A stretch of DNA of 64,000 nucleotides from assembly GCA_013177945.1 (NCBI GenBank), contig JABLXW010000008.1, positions 248,001 to 312,000 of the forward strand, read 5' to 3'. The notes below the pieces were generated by a model. The model worked only from the letters and a program-made list of their open reading frames with translations, was not told the origin of the DNA and searched no databases. Shown in pieces: positions 3,484 to 26,705 of this stretch (the first letter of the stretch is position 1; the number at the start of each line of letters is the position of its first letter). The DNA comes from Bacillota bacterium. Lineage in GTDB: Bacteria > Bacillota > DSM-12270 > Thermacetogeniales > Thermacetogeniaceae. Made by a program: the position numbers and the translations under genes.

Positions 3484-3774
3484 GTGGCAAAAAACCGCTC
3501 TGCAATGAAGAAAGCCCGGATCGCCAGGATCCGCACGCTCCGGAATGCCTCCCGAAAATCGGCCATGAAAACCGCCATTAAAAGGTTCGAAGAGGCGCTC
3601 GCATCAGGAGAAGAGACCAGAGTCGAAGCTGCTTTCAAAAATGCGATCCGCCTGATCGACAAGACCGCATCCAAGGGGATCATTCACCCCAACCTGAGGG
3701 ACCGCAAAAAGGCGCAGCTTGCAAGAAAATTAAAGGCCTTTTTCCGGCAGGGTGAAAGGGAAATGCCGGCCTAA
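3484..3774 (+). CDS. rpsT: 30S ribosomal protein S20
   Basis: A 96-residue basic helical protein beginning with AKNRSAMKKARIARIRTLRN after the start, the typical S20 N-terminus. It binds 16S rRNA early in 30S assembly. GTG 3484 is chosen over the earlier in-frame ATG 3427 because AAGGAGGTGAA (3470-3480) precedes it directly and the result has normal S20 length. It is one of the few plus-strand genes. It converges with holA, and its terminator lies inside the 3' end of holA. The rpsT/holA pairing is conserved across Firmicutes. Confidence 0.97.
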   Translation: MAKNRSAMKKARIARIRTLRNASRKSAMKTAIKRFEEALASGEETRVEAAFKNAIRLIDKTASKGIIHPNLRDRKKAQLARKLKAFFRQGEREMPA

Positions 3775-3784
3775 GCCCTCAAAA

Positions 3785-4792
3785 TTACCTCTTGCGCCCC
3801 AGGGCAAGGGGTTTTTTCATGCAGATTTCGCCCAACCCTGCCTCCAGCAGCAGCCGGGGGGCGCCCCTTCCCTCCTTAATTGCCCGGTCGAGAAGGAGGA
3901 GGGAGGCAAGGATCTCTTCGATCTCCTCGATCCGGTAGTAATTAGCCTGCTTCAGCAGCTTCTTTGCGGCGTAGGGGTGAATCTCCATGACCTCCGGGAT
4001 CCGGGAGGGAGGAACCCCCTCCTTCTGAAGACAGGCCGCCTCCAGAAGCTGCAGGAAGTGGCGAGACAAAAGGGAAACCAGGAGCGCCGGGGGATGCCCC
4101 TGGCCCAAAAGATCGGCGAGCACCTCCCTGGCTGCTTCCGCCTTGCGCTCTGCAAGGGAATCAACCAGTTCAAAAACGCTTCGCCCTGCAGTGCGGCTCC
4201 CAACCTTTTCGAGCACAGCAACAGTAATTGCCCTTCGTCCGGGGCCGAGGAAAAGGGAGGCTTTTTCAATTTCCTGGCGGATCTGCGCCAGGTTGTCCCC
4301 GCACAAGAAGCGCAGGTACTCCCCGGCGGCAGGGGGAAGCTCTTTGCCGCGGGAGCGGGCCTCCTCCTGCATCCACCGCAGCAGCTCTTTTCCCCGGAGC
4401 GGAGCACACTCCACAACCCAGCCCTTCTCCTCCCCAATACGGTAAACCTGCTCGGCCGGCTTAATCTTTGTTTTAAAAAGCAAAACCAGAACCAGAGAGG
4501 GATTGCTTGCCTCTAAATAGCGTGCTATTACGGAAAGAGGGGGATCTCCGGCCACCACAAGGCGCCTGGTATGACCAAAGGAAGGGGTTGCGAGAGCTGC
4601 AGCAAGCTCCCTTTCTCCCGCCTCCCCCTCCCACTCCAGCCAGTCAAGGGACTCCCCCTGGGCTTCAAGCCGGGCCCGGAGCCTCCAGATCAGTTCCCGT
4701 GCCAGGAACTCCTCCCCGTGCAGCAGGAGAAGGTGGGGGAAATCCCCCCGCGCCAGCCTTTCCCCGGCCTCCTGATAAGATAAAACGGGCAT
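3785..4792 (-). CDS. holA: DNA polymerase III delta subunit
   Basis: A 335-residue clamp-loader subunit. The N-terminus (HLLLLHGEEFLARELIWRLRA) is the degenerate AAA+ nucleotide fold of HolA, and a C-terminal helical collar domain follows (about residues 210-325). In the replisome, delta opens the beta clamp. The upstream DUF89 gene ends 4 bases before the start, and the GGGGGATGAAGGA ribosome site overlaps that gene's end, so the two are translationally linked. The 3' end converges with rpsT. Confidence 0.93.
   Translation of the reverse strand: MPVLSYQEAGERLARGDFPHLLLLHGEEFLARELIWRLRARLEAQGESLDWLEWEGEAGERELAAALATPSFGHTRRLVVAGDPPLSVIARYLEASNPSLVLVLLFKTKIKPAEQVYRIGEEKGWVVECAPLRGKELLRWMQEEARSRGKELPPAAGEYLRFLCGDNLAQIRQEIEKASLFLGPGRRAITVAVLEKVGSRTAGRSVFELVDSLAERKAEAAREVLADLLGQGHPPALLVSLLSRHFLQLLEAACLQKEGVPPSRIPEVMEIHPYAAKKLLKQANYYRIEEIEEILASLLLLDRAIKEGRGAPRLLLEAGLGEICMKKPLALGRKR
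3788..3817 (+). terminator. rpsT terminator located inside the holA 3' end
   Basis: CCTCTTGC pairs with GCAAGGGG (8 pairs including one G-U), followed by six T. The hairpin lies within the last codons of the convergent holA gene. Confidence 0.8.
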
Positions 4793-4796
4793 TCCT

Positions 4797-5672
4797 TCAT
4801 CCCCCTTCCCGGACCCGGTTCTGGACGAGGACCGATTCTCCCAGCTTTACACCCAGGCAACCGGCAACAACAGGGCACTTCGCCCGGAGCAGAAAGAAGG
4901 TCTTCGTTCCGGCAAAAGAGGTCCCCTCCAGGGTTTCGTAGTTGGCCTGTCCTTTCGAAAGGACAAGATGCGCCCTTCTTACCAGGGAAACAAAATCATC
5001 ACTGCACAGCTCCGGAATGATCCCCAGGTAGTTGTTTCCGGTCGGAACCACCCGGGCCAGCAGCGGTATCCCCGCCTCTTCGGCATCGGCAAGGGTGGCG
5101 TCATTGAGGATGGGGCCGCCTTTTACAACGTAGTAGAGATCCTTCGTAAACTCCCGGAGCCGGGCAAGAAGCAGATAGTCAAAATAGATTTCCCCGCTGT
5201 TATCCCCGATCACGACCAGGGTGCCCCCTTCCTGGAGAGAAGCGCGCAAAAGGCCGTAATCGCAGCGGCTGAAACTGCGGGCAAGCTCCTCCTCAATGCT
5301 CGCTCCCACATCAAAACCGGGCATGATCCCCATATCGATCACGTTTCCGGCAACGGCCACCCTGCAGGCGGTGAGGAGCGGGTCCTCGCTGAAGCCGATA
5401 ACCCGCTCCAGGGCGGGAAGGAAGCTGCGGGCGAGCCGGTTCGAAGCAGCTTTCGCTTCTGAAAAAGGGTCGCTTTCTCCCAGGAGGCGGTAGGCTTCAA
5501 ACAAAACAAGAGAAGAGTTTTCCGCCGGGCTCTTCTCCGGATCAAGCCGCGAAATTAAAGGAAACAGGGAGTAGAGAATCCGGCGCTGCTCGGATTCGTT
5601 GGCCCCGGCGGCTCTCAAAGTAGAGAGCACCTGTTTTAAATAGCACGGAATGCAGTCTGGTGCAGCCTTCAT
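4797..5672 (-). CDS. DUF89 / ARMT1-family metal-dependent phosphatase
   Basis: A 291-residue protein of the DUF89 (ARMT1-like) family. It has the N-terminal CIPC cysteine pair (residues 7-10), the AGNVID motif near residue 110 and GDNSGEIYFD around residues 156-165, where the Asp and Asn bind the metal. Family members are described as damage-control phosphatases acting on reactive phosphometabolites such as fructose 1-phosphate; the substrate here is unknown. ATG 5672 is preferred because GGAG lies a suitable distance upstream; the in-frame GTG at 5684 overlaps that site. It is translationally linked to holA and sits one gene from pfkA, so a sugar-phosphate substrate is possible but not shown. 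Confidence 0.8.
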   Translation of the reverse strand: MKAAPDCIPCYLKQVLSTLRAAGANESEQRRILYSLFPLISRLDPEKSPAENSSLVLFEAYRLLGESDPFSEAKAASNRLARSFLPALERVIGFSEDPLLTACRVAVAGNVIDMGIMPGFDVGASIEEELARSFSRCDYGLLRASLQEGGTLVVIGDNSGEIYFDYLLLARLREFTKDLYYVVKGGPILNDATLADAEEAGIPLLARVVPTGNNYLGIIPELCSDDFVSLVRRAHLVLSKGQANYETLEGTSFAGTKTFFLLRAKCPVVAGCLGVKLGESVLVQNRVREGG

Positions 5673-5762
5673 TAAAATGCCCACTCCTTTTTTATTTTAA
5701 GTCCCTCCAAATGGAACCCCTTCCCAACCTGCTTCATATATTAGAAAAGCAGGTGGAGCTTC

Positions 5763-6023
5763 TTGATTCCCGACAGGAAGGGAGCTCTCAAACGGCACAG
5801 GTGGATTGTCTTCCTCTTGATCATTATCATTGTACCAATCTTTCTCCTCTTCTTCACCATCGCCGTTGAGAGCAGGCTTGAAAAAAGGTTCAGAAAGGGA
5901 GGGTTACCGTATGCCAAAAATGGAAAGTCCGGATCCCGGTTTCTTCTGGTGGATCATCCTGATCATCATTATCATCTTCTTCTTTTTCTTTCTCTTCTTC
6001 TTGTTTTAAGTAAGCCCATTTAA
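5763..6023 (+). CDS. Possible small membrane protein overlapping the next gene
   Basis: A TTG-started frame of 86 codons with AGGTGGAG just upstream. It encodes a basic N-terminus, one hydrophobic helix (IVFLLIIIIVPIFLLFF) and an ESRLEKRFRKG stretch. The 3' part runs in another frame straight through the clearer gene at 5911-6009, and its residues there are rich in Leu and His. Only the first 45 or so residues look protein-like, so it may be a real gene with an altered 3' end or chance coding. Confidence 0.3.
   Translation: MIPDRKGALKRHRWIVFLLIIIIVPIFLLFFTIAVESRLEKRFRKGGLPYAKNGKSGSRFLLVDHPDHHYHLLLFLSLLLVLSKPI
5911..6009 (+). CDS. Tiny membrane protein with PDPGFFWW motif, copy 1
   Basis: A 32-residue protein starting MPKMESPDPGFFWWI, followed by a tail of only Ile, Leu and Phe that would form one membrane helix. 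AGGGAGGG precedes the ATG. It is a paralogue of the gene at 6040-6168: the ESPDPGFFWW block is identical and the hydrophobic tails are alike. Size and hydrophobicity recall small sporulation membrane proteins such as the YjcZ type, but the motif differs and I do not assign a family. Confidence 0.65.
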   Translation: MPKMESPDPGFFWWIILIIIIIFFFFFLFFLF

Positions 6024-6039
6024 AAAGGAGGTCTCCCTT

Positions 6040-6168
6040 ATGGCGAAATTTGAAAGCCCGGATCCCGGTTTCTTCTGGTGGATTATCATCATTATTATTA
6101 TCATTATCATCTTCTTCTGCTGCTTCTGCTTCTTCCCCATCAGGGCATCGACTCCTGCCGAAGCATAA
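6040..6168 (+). CDS. Tiny membrane protein with PDPGFFWW motif, copy 2
   Basis: A 42-residue protein starting MAKFESPDPGFFWWI, then a run of isoleucines, an FFCCFCFF segment with three cysteines and a polar tail ending PAEA. A near-perfect AAGGAGG lies 7 bases before the ATG, the best ribosome site in this small cluster. It repeats the motif of the gene 31 bases upstream, so the pair arose by tandem duplication. Function unknown; a membrane or spore-coat structural role is a guess. Confidence 0.7.
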   Translation: MAKFESPDPGFFWWIIIIIIIIIIFFCCFCFFPIRASTPAEA

Positions 6169-6236
6169 TGGTGGCCCCAAAGAAGAAACACAAAAAGGCC
6201 CTGGCGTTTGCCAGGGCCGCATATCTTTATTCGGCT

Positions 6237-6578
6237 TTATTCGGCAGGCCCTTTCCAATGTTCGAGGAACTCCGCAAGATCCTGAGGGAGTTCCTCGCAT
6301 CCCAGCTGCTGGAGAGTCTGCTCGACAACCTGAGACATTTGCCGGCGCGTTTCACCGCTCAAACCGGCTGTCATCCGGTTGATTAAAGAAATGATGTTTT
6401 TCTTCTCCTGAATTTCCTGCTCGCCGAGACCCGCCTGTTCCAGCAGTTTTTTGGCCGCTTCCGGATTCTCCGGAGAAACTCCCATGCCGCGGAGAAACTC
6501 TCCGATATGAGAGGCATCCGGCGGCAACCCGGAGGCCTGAAGCTGCCGGAACATTTCCGCGAAATTGATTTTGCCCAA
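6237..6578 (-). CDS. Conserved-looking helical protein, unknown function
   Basis: A 113-residue soluble, mostly helical protein containing EFLRGMGVSPENPEAAKKLL and an amphipathic C-terminal half ending EFLEHWKGPAE. TTG 6578 is chosen because GGAGGGGATGAG lies immediately upstream; extending further adds a Pro/Gly-rich, non-protein-like stretch. It is divergent from pfkA and convergent with the PDPGFFWW genes. I do not recognise the family and no catalytic motif is visible. Confidence 0.5.
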   Translation of the reverse strand: MGKINFAEMFRQLQASGLPPDASHIGEFLRGMGVSPENPEAAKKLLEQAGLGEQEIQEKKNIISLINRMTAGLSGETRRQMSQVVEQTLQQLGCEELPQDLAEFLEHWKGPAE

Positions 6579-12941: not shown

Positions 12942-15030
12942 ATCGAGTAGGGCAGCGCTAGGTAATCAGTCTAGCGCTGTCCCTCTCACAGAACCGTGCG
13001 TACGGGCCACGTACACGGCTCCTGGCAAACCTCAGTCGTTAGCTTTCATAATAACGATGCAAGATGCAACCTCATATCTCTCGAGGTTAACTAAACCGAT
13101 TTCGTCAAACCAGGTGTTTGGAAGAGCCATCGAAACGAGAGGACTGGCTGAGTTTCTCCATCTTCGCATGGATATCTTCTCAAATTCCCCTTTGTAACCT
13201 CGACGGCGAAGGGCTTTATGAAACGCCTTCCAGGTCTTCCACTCCAGCATCTTCTTCATTCGGAGCCGTCGACGTATCCATCCCATGAGCTCGCGAAGTA
13301 CTCTCTTGCAGTTCGCTATGCGGAAGTAGTTAATCCACCCCCGCAGGATGGGGTTAAGCCTCCTGACCATTTCCTCCACATTCATGCCATGGTTCCGGGG
13401 CGTCAGCTGGCGGATAGCCTCTTTGAAGGCCTTTATTTTCTTGGGGTGAATGCCCACATTCTTGGGGTAGATGATAAACCCAAGATAGGCTACACCCTCA
13501 TAGACGCTGGTTATACGCGTCTTTTCCTTGTTGACAACGAGTTTGAGCTCGCCTTCAAGGATTTCATAGGCAGTCTTCATGTACCTTTCCGCCTGCCGGG
13601 GTGTCCTGGCAAAGATGAGAATATCGTCCGCATAGCGAACTATGCGAATACCCCTCTCTTTCATCGCCCGGTCAAAATAGTCCAGATAGATGTTGGTGAG
13701 AAGGGGTGATATTACACCACCTTGTGGACTCCCTACTTCAGTCCCTTCAAAGACCCCGTCCCTCATGACGCCAGCCTCCAGGAACAACCGGATTAATCGC
13801 AGCACAGAACCATCGCTGACTTTCCGGTTCACTCCCTGAAGAATTAGGTCATGGTCAAGACGGTCAAAGCACTTGGAGAGGTCCATGTCTACTACATGTG
13901 TAAGTCCATACCGGTTCATGAACCTCTCGGCTTTGGCTACTGCCTGCTGGCAGGAACGCCCCGGTCGGTATCCATAGCTTGACGGGTGAAAGTCTTGGTC
14001 AAAGATTGGCTGAAGTACGTTTAACAGTGCTTGCTGGACTACCCTGTCCCTAACGGTAGGTATCCCAAGCAGCCTCTTCCCTCCATCCGGCTTGGGTATC
14101 TCCACCCTCAGGACTGGGCTTGGTCTGTACGTCCCGGTCTTGAGTTCAAGATGAAGTTTGGCTATTTCATCGTCTAGATTCTCGCCGAAGGCTCGCACGG
14201 TCTCCCCGTCTACCCCGGGAGCACCATTGTTCGCCTTGACGGCACCGTATGCCTTCTTCAGGTTCTCAATACGGTATACTTTGTCTATTAGGCTGTAGTA
14301 CTTCATCTCTTCTCCCGCATCTCGCCGTACTCCCTGCGTCTCTCCCTCGCATGGTTGCAGTTCCTTCTCAAAGTTCGCACGGCGTCTCTAGCTCTAAGGC
14401 AATCTACCGCGCTCTGCTCCGATAATCTGCTGAGCGGACGAAAGCTCCAGCCGGCTCGTCACCCCCGGATGCCCCGTTCCCCTTGGCATCTCAGCCTCAG
14501 TTGTCTTCTCCCATGTTCGTTCGATCCGCGGTCGCACGCTTTGGTTTGCCTTCGTCCCTTCGCAACCAGAGGAACTTTTGGCTCCTTTGGCCCAGCATCT
14601 CTCGGATGCTGTCCCTTCAGTTTTACCCTCCAGTCCGTTACCGGCTTTCATTGGCTGAAGGTTCATCACTACTACGGACTCATCTGCCACCCTGCACCAC
14701 TTCTTCTCTCCCTTGCCTCCCGGCTTGTTCGAGCTTACCAGGTCTGGCCTGGATGATACAGGGCTTCCCCAATTAAGCCTGCCTGCCTGAACATGAACCC
14801 GTCCGTCCAAACTCCTCAGGTCATCCAGCCTTCGGGCTTTCCCACTTTTCGCAAGGTTACCCACCTGAGAAGCCAACCCCGGTTCGCTTGCGCTACGTTC
14901 CATGTTCTTCCTTCGGCTTCCTTCAGATCCCGCCGTTACCGGCGACACCCTTGCCTACGGATTGTCTTCCCGCTGGTTAGGCGACAGGGTTTCTTTCAAC
15001 CCATCGGCTCAGCAGACATGTTGGGCGAAC
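12942..15030 (-). mobile_element. Group II intron, copy 1 (of two in tandem)
   Basis: A complete 2,089-bp intron on the minus strand. Its 5' end reads GTTCGCCCAA (at 15030), a long structured domain I-III lies upstream of the reverse transcriptase gene, domain V is at 13021-12991 (GAGCCGTG...CACGGTTC) and domain VI runs to the 3' end CTACTCGAT at 12942. The boundaries are set by comparison with copy 2: identity starts and stops exactly here. Its 5' flank is the last base of copy 2's surroundings (one T at 15031), so it sits directly after copy 2. The two copies differ by two single-base indels that I can see (near 13067 and near 14903). Confidence 0.9.
13032..14306 (-). CDS. Group II intron reverse transcriptase/maturase, copy 1
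   Basis: A 424-residue intron-encoded protein. It has a reverse transcriptase domain (GIPTVRDRVVQQALL, SSYGYRPGRSCQQA, catalytic RYADD near residue 233) and a maturase domain X (NPILRGWINYFRIANC). No HNH endonuclease follows, so mobility would rely on unprotected DNA ends or replication-fork strands. GGGAGAAGAG precedes the ATG. A missing base near 13067, relative to copy 2, changes the last residues to ASCIVIMKAND. The conserved domains are unaffected, so activity may be retained. Confidence 0.92.
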   Translation of the reverse strand: MKYYSLIDKVYRIENLKKAYGAVKANNGAPGVDGETVRAFGENLDDEIAKLHLELKTGTYRPSPVLRVEIPKPDGGKRLLGIPTVRDRVVQQALLNVLQPIFDQDFHPSSYGYRPGRSCQQAVAKAERFMNRYGLTHVVDMDLSKCFDRLDHDLILQGVNRKVSDGSVLRLIRLFLEAGVMRDGVFEGTEVGSPQGGVISPLLTNIYLDYFDRAMKERGIRIVRYADDILIFARTPRQAERYMKTAYEILEGELKLVVNKEKTRITSVYEGVAYLGFIIYPKNVGIHPKKIKAFKEAIRQLTPRNHGMNVEEMVRRLNPILRGWINYFRIANCKRVLRELMGWIRRRLRMKKMLEWKTWKAFHKALRRRGYKGEFEKISMRRWRNSASPLVSMALPNTWFDEIGLVNLERYEVASCIVIMKAND

Positions 15031-15031
15031 A

Positions 15032-17120
15032 ATCGAGTAGGGCAGCGCTAGGTAATCAGTCTAGCGCTGTCCCTCTCACAGAACCGTGCGTACGGGCCAC
15101 GTACACGGCTCCTGGCAAACCTCAGTCGTTAGCTTTCATAATAACGATGCAAGATGCCAACCTCATATCTCTCGAGGTTAACTAAACCGATTTCGTCAAA
15201 CCAGGTGTTTGGAAGAGCCATCGAAACGAGAGGACTGGCTGAGTTTCTCCATCTTCGCATGGATATCTTCTCAAATTCCCCTTTGTAACCTCGACGGCGA
15301 AGGGCTTTATGAAACGCCTTCCAGGTCTTCCACTCCAGCATCTTCTTCATTCGGAGCCGTCGACGTATCCATCCCATGAGCTCGCGAAGTACTCTCTTGC
15401 AGTTCGCTATGCGGAAGTAGTTAATCCACCCCCGCAGGATGGGGTTAAGCCTCCTGACCATTTCCTCCACATTCATGCCATGGTTCCGGGGCGTCAGCTG
15501 GCGGATAGCCTCTTTGAAGGCCTTTATTTTCTTGGGGTGAATGCCCACATTCTTGGGGTAGATGATAAACCCAAGATAGGCTACACCCTCATAGACGCTG
15601 GTTATACGCGTCTTTTCCTTGTTGACAACGAGTTTGAGCTCGCCTTCAAGGATTTCATAGGCAGTCTTCATGTACCTTTCCGCCTGCCGGGGTGTCCTGG
15701 CAAAGATGAGAATATCGTCCGCATAGCGAACTATGCGAATACCCCTCTCTTTCATCGCCCGGTCAAAATAGTCCAGATAGATGTTGGTGAGAAGGGGTGA
15801 TATTACACCACCTTGTGGACTCCCTACTTCAGTCCCTTCAAAGACCCCGTCCCTCATGACGCCAGCCTCCAGGAACAACCGGATTAATCGCAGCACAGAA
15901 CCATCGCTGACTTTCCGGTTCACTCCCTGAAGAATTAGGTCATGGTCAAGACGGTCAAAGCACTTGGAGAGGTCCATGTCTACTACATGTGTAAGTCCAT
16001 ACCGGTTCATGAACCTCTCGGCTTTGGCTACTGCCTGCTGGCAGGAACGCCCCGGTCGGTATCCATAGCTTGACGGGTGAAAGTCTTGGTCAAAGATTGG
16101 CTGAAGTACGTTTAACAGTGCTTGCTGGACTACCCTGTCCCTAACGGTAGGTATCCCAAGCAGCCTCTTCCCTCCATCCGGCTTGGGTATCTCCACCCTC
16201 AGGACTGGGCTTGGTCTGTACGTCCCGGTCTTGAGTTCAAGATGAAGTTTGGCTATTTCATCGTCTAGATTCTCGCCGAAGGCTCGCACGGTCTCCCCGT
16301 CTACCCCGGGAGCACCATTGTTCGCCTTGACGGCACCGTATGCCTTCTTCAGGTTCTCAATACGGTATACTTTGTCTATTAGGCTGTAGTACTTCATCTC
16401 TTCTCCCGCATCTCGCCGTACTCCCTGCGTCTCTCCCTCGCATGGTTGCAGTTCCTTCTCAAAGTTCGCACGGCGTCTCTAGCTCTAAGGCAATCTACCG
16501 CGCTCTGCTCCGATAATCTGCTGAGCGGACGAAAGCTCCAGCCGGCTCGTCACCCCCGGATGCCCCGTTCCCCTTGGCATCTCAGCCTCAGTTGTCTTCT
16601 CCCATGTTCGTTCGATCCGCGGTCGCACGCTTTGGTTTGCCTTCGTCCCTTCGCAACCAGAGGAACTTTTGGCTCCTTTGGCCCAGCATCTCTCGGATGC
16701 TGTCCCTTCAGTTTTACCCTCCAGTCCGTTACCGGCTTTCATTGGCTGAAGGTTCATCACTACTACGGACTCATCTGCCACCCTGCACCACTTCTTCTCT
16801 CCCTTGCCTCCCGGCTTGTTCGAGCTTACCAGGTCTGGCCTGGATGATACAGGGCTTCCCCAATTAAGCCTGCCTGCCTGAACATGAACCCGTCCGTCCA
16901 AACTCCTCAGGTCATCCAGCCTTCGGGCTTTCCCACTTTTCGCAAGGTTACCCACCTGAGAAGCCAACCCCGGTTCGCTTGCGCTACGTTCCATTTCTTC
17001 CTTCGGCTTCCTTCAGATCCCGCCGTTACCGGCGACACCCTTGCCTACGGATTGTCTTCCCGCTGGTTAGGCGACAGGGTTTCTTTCAACCCATCGGCTC
17101 AGCAGACATGTTGGGCGAAC
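15032..17120 (-). mobile_element. Group II intron, copy 2 (next to the ech terminator)
   Basis: A 2,089-bp intron on the minus strand with the same ends as copy 1: GTTCGCCC at 17120, domain V at 15111-15081 and 3' end CTACTCGAT at 15032. Its 5' exon is the T-run of a strong Rho-independent terminator (17121-17153), so it inserted immediately behind the terminator of the hydrogenase operon. Insertion behind terminators is the known habit of bacterial class C introns, but the class is not settled from the RNA here. Confidence 0.9.
15129..16397 (-). CDS. Group II intron reverse transcriptase/maturase, copy 2
   Basis: A 422-residue protein identical to the copy at 13032-14306 except for its C-terminus, which reads GILHRYYES after LERYEV because of one extra base. 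The reverse transcriptase motifs including RYADD and the maturase domain are intact. No endonuclease domain is present. As the two introns are adjacent and nearly identical, duplication or re-insertion must be recent. Confidence 0.92.
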   Translation of the reverse strand: MKYYSLIDKVYRIENLKKAYGAVKANNGAPGVDGETVRAFGENLDDEIAKLHLELKTGTYRPSPVLRVEIPKPDGGKRLLGIPTVRDRVVQQALLNVLQPIFDQDFHPSSYGYRPGRSCQQAVAKAERFMNRYGLTHVVDMDLSKCFDRLDHDLILQGVNRKVSDGSVLRLIRLFLEAGVMRDGVFEGTEVGSPQGGVISPLLTNIYLDYFDRAMKERGIRIVRYADDILIFARTPRQAERYMKTAYEILEGELKLVVNKEKTRITSVYEGVAYLGFIIYPKNVGIHPKKIKAFKEAIRQLTPRNHGMNVEEMVRRLNPILRGWINYFRIANCKRVLRELMGWIRRRLRMKKMLEWKTWKAFHKALRRRGYKGEFEKISMRRWRNSASPLVSMALPNTWFDEIGLVNLERYEVGILHRYYES

Positions 17121-23228: not shown

Positions 23229-23777
23229 TCACCCCCTTTCCCTCCGTTCTAAGGAAAGAAGGCATTCTTTCAGACCCGGCCCCCCGCACCCGTAGCCGCC
23301 AAGACGTCCGTCTCCGTAAACAACCCGGTGGCAGGGGATGAAAAGAGGAAGAGGATTGGCGGCAAGAGCCTGTCCAACGGCGCGGGCGCCCCCGGGCTTT
23401 CCGCACTCCTCCGCAACCCGACCGTAGGAGCGGGTTTCCCCTGGAGGAATGGCGCGCACGACACCGTACACCCTTCTCTGCCAGGGCGTAAAGCGCCCGG
23501 CCTCAAGGGGAACCTCCTCCAGCTGCTGCGGAAAGCCCTGAAAAAAAGCAAGCAGTGCTTCCGCTGCCTGCTCGAGAATCCGGTTCTTTTCAAAGCCCGG
23601 GCTGCAGGGTCCGTTTTTTAAGGCGCGTTCGAGGCCGGCAGCAGCCTCCTCCCTGCTTCCCCAGGGCCAGCTGAAGGCCCAGAGCCCCCGGGGAGAGGCA
23701 AGAAGCCACCCCCAGCCCCAGGGTGTAAAAACATAACGGGCATTGAGGCGCTCCGGGGTGAAAGGCCTCCGGCTCAC
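23229..23777 (-). CDS. ogt: Methylated-DNA-protein-cysteine methyltransferase
   Basis: A 182-residue suicidal DNA repair protein that takes the methyl group from O6-methylguanine. The active site PCHRVV contains Cys149, and [30 protein letters not shown] carries the DNA-binding helix and arginine finger. The N-terminal domain is degenerate, as is normal. GTG 23777 overlaps the leuS stop (GTGA), so it is translated as part of the leuS operon. Confidence 0.92.
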
Positions 23778-26284
23778 TTAACCTTCCCCGCCGCCTTCTC
23801 GCGCACCACGAGGTTAACCAGCTTGCCGGGCACGGAAATCACCCGGAGGAGCTCTTTGTCCTGGATCAGGGCGCGAACCCTCGGCTGGGCAAGGACGATC
23901 TCCTCCATTTCCCGGAGACTCACGCCAGCCGGAACCCGAAGCCGGTCCCGGACGCGCCCGTTGACCTGGACAACGATCGTAATTTCTTCCTCGGCCAGGG
24001 CCTGAGGATCAAAAGCGGGCCACCTCTCCCTGTGCACGCTCCCGGAGTTTCCTACAACCTCCCACAGCTCTTCGGCAAGGTGGGGTGTGAAGGGAGCCAG
24101 GAGTAAGATGAGATTCACGATGCTCTCCCTCAAAACCCCTCTGTTTCTCCGCTCCGGCGGAACCTGATCTACGTAGTGATAGAGGGCATTTACGAGCTCC
24201 ATCAAAGCGCTCACTGCAGTATTGAAATTGAAACGCGTCCTGATGTCCTCGGTGACTTTCTGGATTGTCCGGTGGGTGGCCCGCCGCAGGTCCCGGTCCG
24301 CGGGGCTCAACTCCGCGCCCTCAAAGTTTGAACCGCCCGCGCCCCTGATTTCCGGCGCGGCACCGGTCACCAGCCGCCAGACCCTGTTGATGAACCGGAA
24401 GGATCCTTCAACCCCCTGGTCGCTCCAGTCCAGGTCCCGCTCCGGGGGCGCCGCGAAAAGGATGAAGAGGCGGGCGGTGTCGGCGCCGTAAGCCTCGATG
24501 ATCTCTTCAGGGCTCACCACATTCCCCCGCGACTTGGACATCTTCGCCCCGTCCTTTAAAACCATCCCCTGGGTGAGGAGGTTGGTAAAGGGTTCGTCAA
24601 CCGGAACAAGCCCCAGGTCGTAAAGCACCTTGGTGAAGAAGCGGGCGTACATGAGGTGCAGAATGGCGTGCTCCACCCCGCCGATGTACTGGTCCACCGG
24701 CATCCAGTAGCGCAGCTTTTCCGGATCAAATGCCCTTTCCCTTTCATGGGGGCTGCAGTAGCGCAAAAAATACCAGGAGGAGCAGACAAAGGTATCCATC
24801 GTATCGGTTTCCCGCCTGGCAGGCCCCCCGCAGGCCGGGCAGGTGGCGCGGAGGAATTCCGGCGCCTTCAGGAGCGGCGACTCCCCGGTCGGCTCAAATT
24901 CCACGTCGAGGGGGAGGAGCACAGGAAGATCTTTTTCGGGAACGGGAACAGTTCCGCACTCCTCGCAGTAGATGATCGGAATCGGCGCCCCCCAGTAGCG
25001 CTGCCGGGAAATAAGCCAGTCCCGCAGCCGGTAGTTGACCTGCTCCCGGCCGTATCCCTTTTCTTCAATAAAGGCGGTGATCTTCAGCCTGGCAACCTCG
25101 CTGTCGATGCCGCTGAAGGGCCCGGAGTTAACCATCAGGCCCGGCTCGACATAAGCCTCTTCCATCGTCTGGGGATCCAGGTTGCGCCCCAGGGGCTGGA
25201 TCACGACCTTCACCGGCAGCCCGTACTTCCGGGCAAATTCGAGGTCGCGCTGGTCGTGGGCGGGAACGCCCATCACCGCCCCGGTCCCGTACTCCATCAG
25301 AACGTAGTTCGCAATCCAGATGGGGACCCGCTCGCCGCTCAGAGGGTTGTATGCGCAGGCTCCGGTAAAGATCCCCTCTTTTTCCGTCTCGGCCGAGGTC
25401 CTGTCGATTTCGCTCTGCAGCCGCACCCTTTCGATGAAATTCCTGATCCGGCCGGCCTCGGGCCGGCCTTTCACGAGCTCCTCCACCAGGGGGTGCTCCG
25501 GCGCAAGGACAAGGTAGGTTACGCCGTAAATCGTATCGGGCCTGGTTGTGAAAACGGGGATTTCGCTCCCGTTCTCGGCCCGGAACCTGATTTCGACTCC
25601 CCTGCTCTTCCCGATCCAGTTTTCCTGCATCGTTTTAACCTTTTCGGGCCATCCCGCGAGCTTCTCCAGGTCCTGCAAAAGGCGCTCTGCATAGGCCGTA
25701 ATCCTGAAAAACCACTGCTCCAGGTCCTTCTTTACAACACCGGTTTCGCACCGCTCGCACCTGCCGCCAACCACCTGCTCGTTGGCCAGAACTGTTGCGC
25801 AGGCAGGGCACCAGTTGACGGCAGCCTTCTTCCGGTACGCCAGCCCTTTGTGATAGAGCTGCAAAAAGAGCCACTGCGTCCAGCGGTAGTAGTCGGGGTG
25901 GCAGGTGGCAACCTCCCGCGACCAGTCGTAGCTCACACCGAGAGACTTCAGCTGGCGGCGCATGTTGTTGATGTTGTCCCAGGTCCACCTGGCAGGATGA
26001 ATACCGTGCTTGATTGCGGCATTTTCCGCCGGGAGGCCGAAGGCATCCCAGCCCATCGGATGCAGGACCCGGTAGCCCTGCATTGTATAAAAGCGCGCCA
26101 CCACGTCTCCGATGGCGTAATTGCGCACATGGCCCATGTGCAGGTTTCCCGAAGGGTAGGGGAACATCTCCAGGCAGTAAAATTTCGGAGCAGAAGGGTC
26201 TTCGGCCACGCGAAAGGCGTCTTCCTGCTCCCAGCGCTCCTGCCATTTCTTTTCAACGAAGCGGAAATTGTACCTGCCTTCCAC
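23774..26284 (-). CDS. leuS: Leucyl-tRNA synthetase
   Basis: An 836-residue class I synthetase that charges tRNA-Leu. HMGH (in [12 protein letters not shown]) and KMSKS (in [10 protein letters not shown]) form the ATP site, and a CP1 editing domain with a TTRPDT motif lies between. A zinc-like CPAC motif is present. I chose GTG 26284 because GGAGG lies 7 bases before it; the open frame extends upstream only through the leader and tRNA. Expression is expected to be controlled by the leucine T-box leader immediately upstream. ogt is translationally coupled downstream. Confidence 0.95.
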
Positions 26285-26321
26285 AACCAATCCTCCTGTA
26301 GATGCTGACGCTTCTATAAAA

Positions 26322-26357
26322 ATTAAGCTCTCCCGCCCCCTGAAGGGACGGGAGAGA
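26322..26357 (-). terminator. Regulated terminator of the leuS T-box
   Basis: On the minus strand CTCTCCCG and CGGGAGAG pair, with CCC and GGG inside and a short loop, followed by CTTAATTTTT. It is the alternative fold to the T-box antiterminator. Confidence 0.85.
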
Positions 26358-26675
26358 GAACTTCCCGCGGTACCACCCAGCTTGGTAAATAAACTGGTGG
26401 AGCTGGCGGGAGTCGAACCCGCGACCTCTTCCATGCCAAGGAAGCGCGCTCCCACTGCGCCACAGCCCCACGTATTTACCCACTTTCGCGAGTTAACGCC
26501 GTCTTACGTTGCCGGCTCGCCGCCGGCACTGCTCCCGGGCGAGTTCGGCCCCCGGCAGGCCCCCGGCTCGCACCCCGTCACACCGGTTCTCTGAAGGCTC
26601 CGGGTTGACCTACTACTCCCGTTCCTTGCATTTATCGAAAGCCGCAGCTTATTTGAACCTTTCCAAACCGACTCT
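26325..26675 (-). promoter_or_regulatory. Leucine T-box riboswitch controlling leuS, with inserted tRNA
   Basis: The leader shows the T-box landmarks in order: GGGAGTAGTA in lower stem I, AGAGAACCGG and GGTGCGAGCC of distal stem I, the specifier segment GAACTCGCC with CTC (Leu), GCGTTAACTCGCGAAAGTGG, and the 14-base T-box GGGTGGTACCGCGG at 26377-26364. The terminator follows. The specifier CTC agrees with leuS downstream. Uncharged tRNA-Leu would stabilise the antiterminator through UGGU pairing with its ACCA end. Unlike normal leaders, stem III (GGTAAATA at 26480-26473 with TATTTACC at 26391-26384) is not closed by a short loop but contains a whole tRNA-Ala. Confidence 0.85.
26395..26469 (-). 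tRNA. tRNA-Ala (anticodon GGC), nested in the leuS T-box
   Basis: A 75-base tRNA with encoded CCA. The acceptor stem GGGGCTG/CAGCTCC carries the G3-U70 pair that marks alanine identity. The D stem is GCGC/GCGC, the anticodon stem CTTCC/GGAAG holds loop TTGGCAT (anticodon GGC), and the T stem is GCGGG/CCCGC with loop TTCGACT. All arms are complete, so it looks functional. It has no promoter of its own close by and would be made from the leuS leader transcript. Confidence 0.95.
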
Positions 26676-26705
26676 ATTATACGTGATCCTCCGCCCGCCT
26701 GTCAA
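26676..26705 (-). promoter_or_regulatory. Sigma-A promoter of the leuS leader and tRNA-Ala
   Basis: On the minus strand a perfect TTGACA (26705-26700) and a perfect TATAAT (26681-26676) are 18 bases apart. The transcript would start about 50 bases before T-box stem I. Confidence 0.85.

Follow-up and report, generated by a model that had tools for sequence, protein, structure and literature searches.

The leader of leuS, the leucyl-tRNA synthetase gene, is in a Bacillota bacterium (GCA_013177945.1) a T-box riboswitch whose stem III encloses a complete tRNA-Ala(GGC) gene. When about 85,000 species genomes were scanned, at least 96 loci with a tRNA abutting a T-box motif in the same way were found among the 120 matches listed. 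Judging from sequence, we propose with a probability of about 0.78 that this leader responds to leucine and is at the same time the unit from which tRNA-Ala(GGC) is transcribed.

Anatomy of the leuS leader

The anatomy of the nested leader, its conservation and its shared promoter can be read from the sequence itself. The features in the present genome are collected in Table 1, with positions given in the window, that is, the whole stretch of 64,000 nt that was analysed. The sequence-only reading of this DNA had placed a complete tRNA-Ala(GGC) inside stem III of the leuS T-box, and this is borne out: the Rfam T-box model spans the intact tRNA, ARAGORN agrees, and the CTC specifier, the T-box sequence, the terminator, the 8-bp enclosing stem, the G3-U70 pair and the encoded CCA were all located. 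The RF00230 match at 26635-26341 covers model positions 1-219 of 219 (gathering score 93, E-value 7e-20), and the strands GGTAAATA and TATTTACC, which form 8 bp around the tRNA, are the stem III pairs of the Rfam model itself. The tRNA model RF00005 matches within it at 26469-26398 on the minus strand with 68.9 bits. The minimum-energy fold of the whole leader including the terminator gave no T-box fold and so lends no support; note that such folds often miss for long GC-rich leaders.

Table 1. Elements of the nested leuS leader, in window coordinates
Feature	Coordinates	Strand	Basis or remark
Sigma-A promoter TTGACA-18-TATAAT of leuS leader	26676..26705	-	12/12 consensus
T-box leader RF00230, tRNA interrupting stem III	26341..26635	-	Rfam, 96.2 bits
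Stem I with AGTAGTA, AGAGA and GGTG motifs	26531..26629 (boundaries approximate)	-	Rfam alignment and sequence
Specifier codon CTC (Leu), GAA just before	26541..26543	-	Alignment, sequence
Stem II region, hairpin TGCCGGC/GCCGGCA	26509..26529 (approximate)	-	Rfam alignment
Purine motif AAGTG, preceding stem III 5' strand	26485-26481	-	
Stem III 5' strand GGTAAATA	26473..26480	-	Rfam alignment, sequence
tRNA-Ala(GGC), 75 nt, encoded CCA, G3-U70	26395..26469	-	ARAGORN
Stem III 3' strand TATTTACC	26384..26391	-	Rfam alignment, sequence
AA directly after stem III 3' strand	26383-26382	-	
T-box sequence GGGTGGTACCGCGG	26365..26378	-	Rfam, sequence; TGGT pairs with tRNA NCCA end
Intrinsic terminator, 13-bp stem then CTTAATTTTT	26328..26356	-	
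leuS, leucyl-tRNA synthetase (P0001)	23774..26287, start 26287	-	Pfam LeuS editing domain

The promoter in Table 1 is the only promoter-like site found on the minus strand within the leader region, with none adjoining the tRNA. The genome has 11 T-boxes, among which only that of leuS holds a tRNA. Equally strong promoters stand at several of the other T-box leaders, and it seems that an ordinary T-box promoter drives the nested tRNA.

Two side observations concern the same genome. The group II intron model RF02001 matches the minus strand of the window twice, at 14777-14945 and 16868-17035; the two matches closely resemble each other and are separated by about 2 kb. Two further T-box leaders, L004 (contig C16) and L005 (contig C25), have equal scores, an identical promoter sequence and matching tRNA runs nearby, which may reflect either duplication or assembly redundancy.

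Recurrence across genomes

Is the nested tRNA a peculiarity of one genome? The scan of species genomes looked for a tRNA T-arm followed by GGTGGNACCGCG within 15-45 nt, and with at least 96 other loci a single-genome accident or an assembly error is ruled out. Among the matches listed, the nested tRNA is tRNA-Ala(GGC) in 96/96 loci and LeuS is encoded downstream in 93 of them, the sequences of the remaining three ending too early. A bias of the pattern towards alanine tRNAs is also ruled out, since its T-arm part fits 45 of the 46 other tRNAs of the present genome. By record labels, the nested loci among the matches listed comprise 49 from Bacillota, 28 from Chloroflexota, 8 from Thermomicrobiota and 3 from Armatimonadota, with a few further ones from Coprothermobacterota, Actinomycetota and Caldisericota; the single records labelled Pseudomonadota and Desulfovibrio may be mislabelled. 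Cultured bacteria with the nested form include Syntrophomonas wolfei, Thermosyntropha lipolytica and a Desulfofundulus. The other 24 of the 120 matches listed are non-nested, 20 with no tRNA found and 4 with a non-Ala tRNA. Only one of these 24, L025, is a convincing leuS leader, and its tRNA is cut by the sequence end.

A looser pattern was applied to 299 evenly drawn genomes of the same phylum. It matched 68 of them, about 63 being real by inspection, and the matches fell in 22 of 122 families, often in every sampled member (9/9 in f16, 8/8 in f22). The pattern written backwards gave 5 matches in the same sample against the 68, so chance matches as the source of the roughly 70 are ruled out. 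Of 121 genomes from the phylum to which one Anaerolineae locus belongs, 17 matched, and about 14 of the matches are real. Within the class of the present genome, 16 of 20 genomes carry the nested form, as seen at leuS or by pattern. A DNA similarity search of a plasmid collection returned tRNA-sized matches only. At two loci, L022 (2294-2368) and L030 (2203-2277), the nested tRNA was labelled by Rfam in E-value mode as a 75-nt 'tmRNA', below the gathering score, which is probably a model artefact.

Conservation of the T-box and its promoter

The full T-box model spans the tRNA elsewhere too, as the covariance analysis of eight chosen loci from various lineages in several phyla shows (E-values 3e-13 to 3e-26, with the gathering score exceeded at three loci). 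Stem III strands pair much better with their own partners than with strands taken from elsewhere (anchored scores 6.1 vs 3.8, P about 2e-26). When stem III was aligned by its flanking motifs alone, 6/6 positions were paired above the shuffle mean, and at 5/6 none of 2000 shuffles did better; the pairs exchange between GC, AT, TA and CG types. The flanks of stem III in the nested loci read RAGNG...AA, and RRRNG...AA is the motif of ordinary T-boxes (PMC7778990). The specifier is CTC in 65 and CTG in 1 of the 66 loci resolved by pattern; in most of the 27 nested loci beyond these, GAACTC or something close to it can be recognised on visual inspection. Terminator-like stems follow downstream in 55-78% of nested loci, depending on the group, and in 0% of shuffles. 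The tRNAs of the relatives end in GGG at the 5' side and TCC at the 3' side.

Do the tRNA and the T-box share one transcript? The earlier reading had held that the same RNA would be both a tRNA precursor and a tRNA-sensing riboswitch, and that a T-box and a tRNA always on separate transcripts in related genomes, with an extra promoter between the two, would speak against this. Among 81 nested loci, a promoter scoring at least 9/12 lies upstream of stem I in 77%, 44 of them scoring 11 or 12, while a match in the 110 nt before the tRNA was found in 6%, with a mean score equal to that of shuffled sequence. Together with the T-box model running across the tRNA, the shared promoter before stem I supports a putative common transcript.

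It might still be supposed that two independent units overlap here, a tRNA with its own promoter and a T-box that is separate or dead. One relative, G016 (L146), seems to fit: its T-box sequence is decayed and its specifier region altered, and the tRNA-Ala(GGC) and terminator remain before leuS. We take this locus as a natural loss of the T-box. The lack of promoter-like sites adjoining the tRNA, the covariation of stem III across it and the specifier and T-box sequences kept across phyla all argue against independent units, which we regard as highly improbable. A further relative, L144, looked like a T-box without a tRNA and was set aside, as it resembles a mis-assembled contig end.

Source of tRNA-Ala(GGC)

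In the genomes that allow a check, most or all tRNA-Ala(GGC) appears to come from the nested gene. No second Ala(GGC) was found among the 46 other typed tRNAs of the present genome, where the sole other alanine tRNA is CGC; this genome is a 55-contig draft lacking tRNA-Ile(GAU) and tRNA-Ala(UGC), so an unassembled second Ala(GGC) copy is possible. The two missing tRNAs probably sit in an unassembled rRNA operon. In the closed genomes G019, G034, G040 and G066, no Ala(GGC) beyond the nested gene was found at the BLAST cut-off, the further matches being Ala(CGC) or Pro. This single-copy check used one BLAST query, which failed to pick up some known nested genes elsewhere; its outcome is supportive and not exhaustive.

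These observations bear on the possibility that the tRNA is retained as a structural element of stem III, for instance as a scaffold, or as a mimic or decoy that would engage the T-box bulge in cis, the mature tRNA being incidental. Its precise placement in the stem III loop and the conserved flanks would agree with such a role. However, the features of an alanine tRNA are kept, and neither the present genome nor the four closed ones yielded a further alanine tRNA with GGC. The unpaired linkers between stem III and the tRNA vary from 0 to 18 nt, which disfavours a rigid scaffold, and only 71 of 97 nested tRNAs have an encoded CCA, a lack of conservation that speaks against an in-cis CCA decoy. 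Retention for structure alone is thus very unlikely.

Proposed mechanism

How would such a leader work? A strong constitutive promoter would produce the leader RNA. T-box leaders in general are constitutively made and mostly terminated. On the nascent RNA, stem I and stem II would fold, and stem III would close on the whole tRNA and not on a short loop, its base and its purine and AA flanks staying available to the T-box core. In known T-box structures stem III contacts the core by its base and flanks only, and because nothing else of it touches the core, its loop would tolerate the insert. The leucine decision would depend on uncharged tRNA-Leu bound to the CTC specifier and the TGGT bulge, and would be made in the approximately 70 nt downstream of the tRNA. 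With plentiful leucine, transcription would stop at the terminator, leaving a short RNA that would be no more than a tRNA precursor, extended by a long leader at its 5' end; with scarce leucine, RNA polymerase would continue into leuS. Since the tRNA precedes the terminator, it would be made whichever way the switch goes, one tRNA-Ala(GGC) per transcript in both outcomes, excisable by RNase P and 3' processing enzymes, and the T-box terminator would serve as the terminator of the tRNA gene as well. We infer the excision of the tRNA, the leucine responsiveness, and a decision that either precedes excision or tolerates it.

There is a further question of concern, what excision does to the switch. 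The sequence-only reading had pointed out that RNase P cutting would separate the sensor from the antiterminator, which follows from chemistry; how much this severing weighs would turn on which comes first, the antitermination decision or the cleavage. If RNase P and 3' processing cut the leader about as fast as the decision is made, they would part stem I and its bound tRNA-Leu from the antiterminator, and excision would itself be a regulatory input, with leuS read-through set by the processing rate together with tRNA-Leu charging. In every nested case the tRNA does lie exactly between sensor and effector, and after excision stem III, with a median of 6 bp, would persist as a gapped duplex. 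On the other hand, stem III has the same median of 6 bp in nested and ordinary leaders, so that it is not lengthened and gives no sign of a stabilised splint. The decision region is about 70 nt, and with so little left to transcribe the decision would probably be complete before excision. Moreover, 13 of 30 sampled genomes of the phylum without the pattern run a tRNA-less T-box at leuS in which a short loop closes the same stem III; the remaining 17 have no T-box motif at leuS. We therefore consider excision as an input improbable. A related idea, that the leader is an ancient composite RNA in which excision of tRNA-Ala(GGC) sets or resets the leucine switch and so couples alanine tRNA supply to LeuS expression, also seems unlikely to us. 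The reading that we prefer is the dual use of one leader as leucine switch and tRNA transcription unit.

Evolution of the nested form

In three genomes with a tRNA-less leuS T-box (G049, G052 and G039), a solitary tRNA-Ala(GGC) with promoter-like sequence upstream was found. On a LeuS tree built with FastTree, at least 9 changes are needed between nested and tRNA-less T-boxes, and deep branches of Chloroflexota as well as of Bacillota carry the nested form. The tree fits gain, loss or transfer alike; our preferred reading is an ancient origin with repeated loss.

The gene order between leader and leuS also varies. An aminotransferase class IV (ilvE-like) gene is interposed in Armatimonadota and some Chloroflexota loci, and a gene for an AMP-binding enzyme in Desulfotomaculum relatives. 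One or the other of these genes follows the nested leader at L054, L088, L037, L099, L109, L022, L040 and L094. The interposed ilvE-like gene would keep the link to leucine. In the closed relative G019 (L278, G019:C1:2161000-2168200), nested leader and leuS are separated at about 3555-6463 by direct repeats (period 662 bp, about four copies), which possibly uncouple the T-box from leuS.

Relation to known systems and significance

The nested leader shares with the leucine T-box (RF00230) at leuS the stem I with GAA-CTC, stem II, stem III with RRRNG...AA, the TGGN T-box, the antiterminator, the terminator and the synthetase gene downstream. It differs in having a complete tRNA gene as the loop of stem III, so the leader would be a tRNA precursor too. 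The tRNA is identical to that of solitary tRNA-Ala(GGC) units (L279, L281, L282), which stand alone with promoter-like sequence upstream, whereas the promoter and terminator of the nested form are those of the leuS leader. Some large noncoding RNAs, GOLLD among them, have been reported to carry tRNAs, and GOLLD is not known to be a riboswitch. In both GOLLD and the nested leader a tRNA lies within a structured noncoding RNA, while the host of the nested one is a defined tRNA synthetase regulator. The T-box leader of B. subtilis thrS is processed, with cleavage near the antiterminator; this likeness of a T-box mRNA leader cut near its antiterminator goes only so far, as the thrS cleavage is not a tRNA excision. 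No earlier description of a nested tRNA was found in the open literature, most subscription papers being outside the search, and a 2008 survey of T-boxes leaves tRNA genes unmentioned. With moderate uncertainty about prior notice, we suggest that the nested T-box and tRNA is a new form of T-box leader.

What does the arrangement mean? Leaders are assumed to be either regulators or tRNA precursors, and a tRNA-sensing riboswitch with a tRNA gene inside it goes against this assumption. Annotating the tRNA or the T-box alone conceals the other. The pairing of tRNA and synthetase is constant across phyla, always tRNA-Ala(GGC) with leuS among the matches listed. The arrangement also raises a testable question, namely whether antitermination or cleavage by RNase P comes first on the nascent RNA. 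If the proposed dual use holds, the attenuated leader, usually viewed as waste, would become a product.
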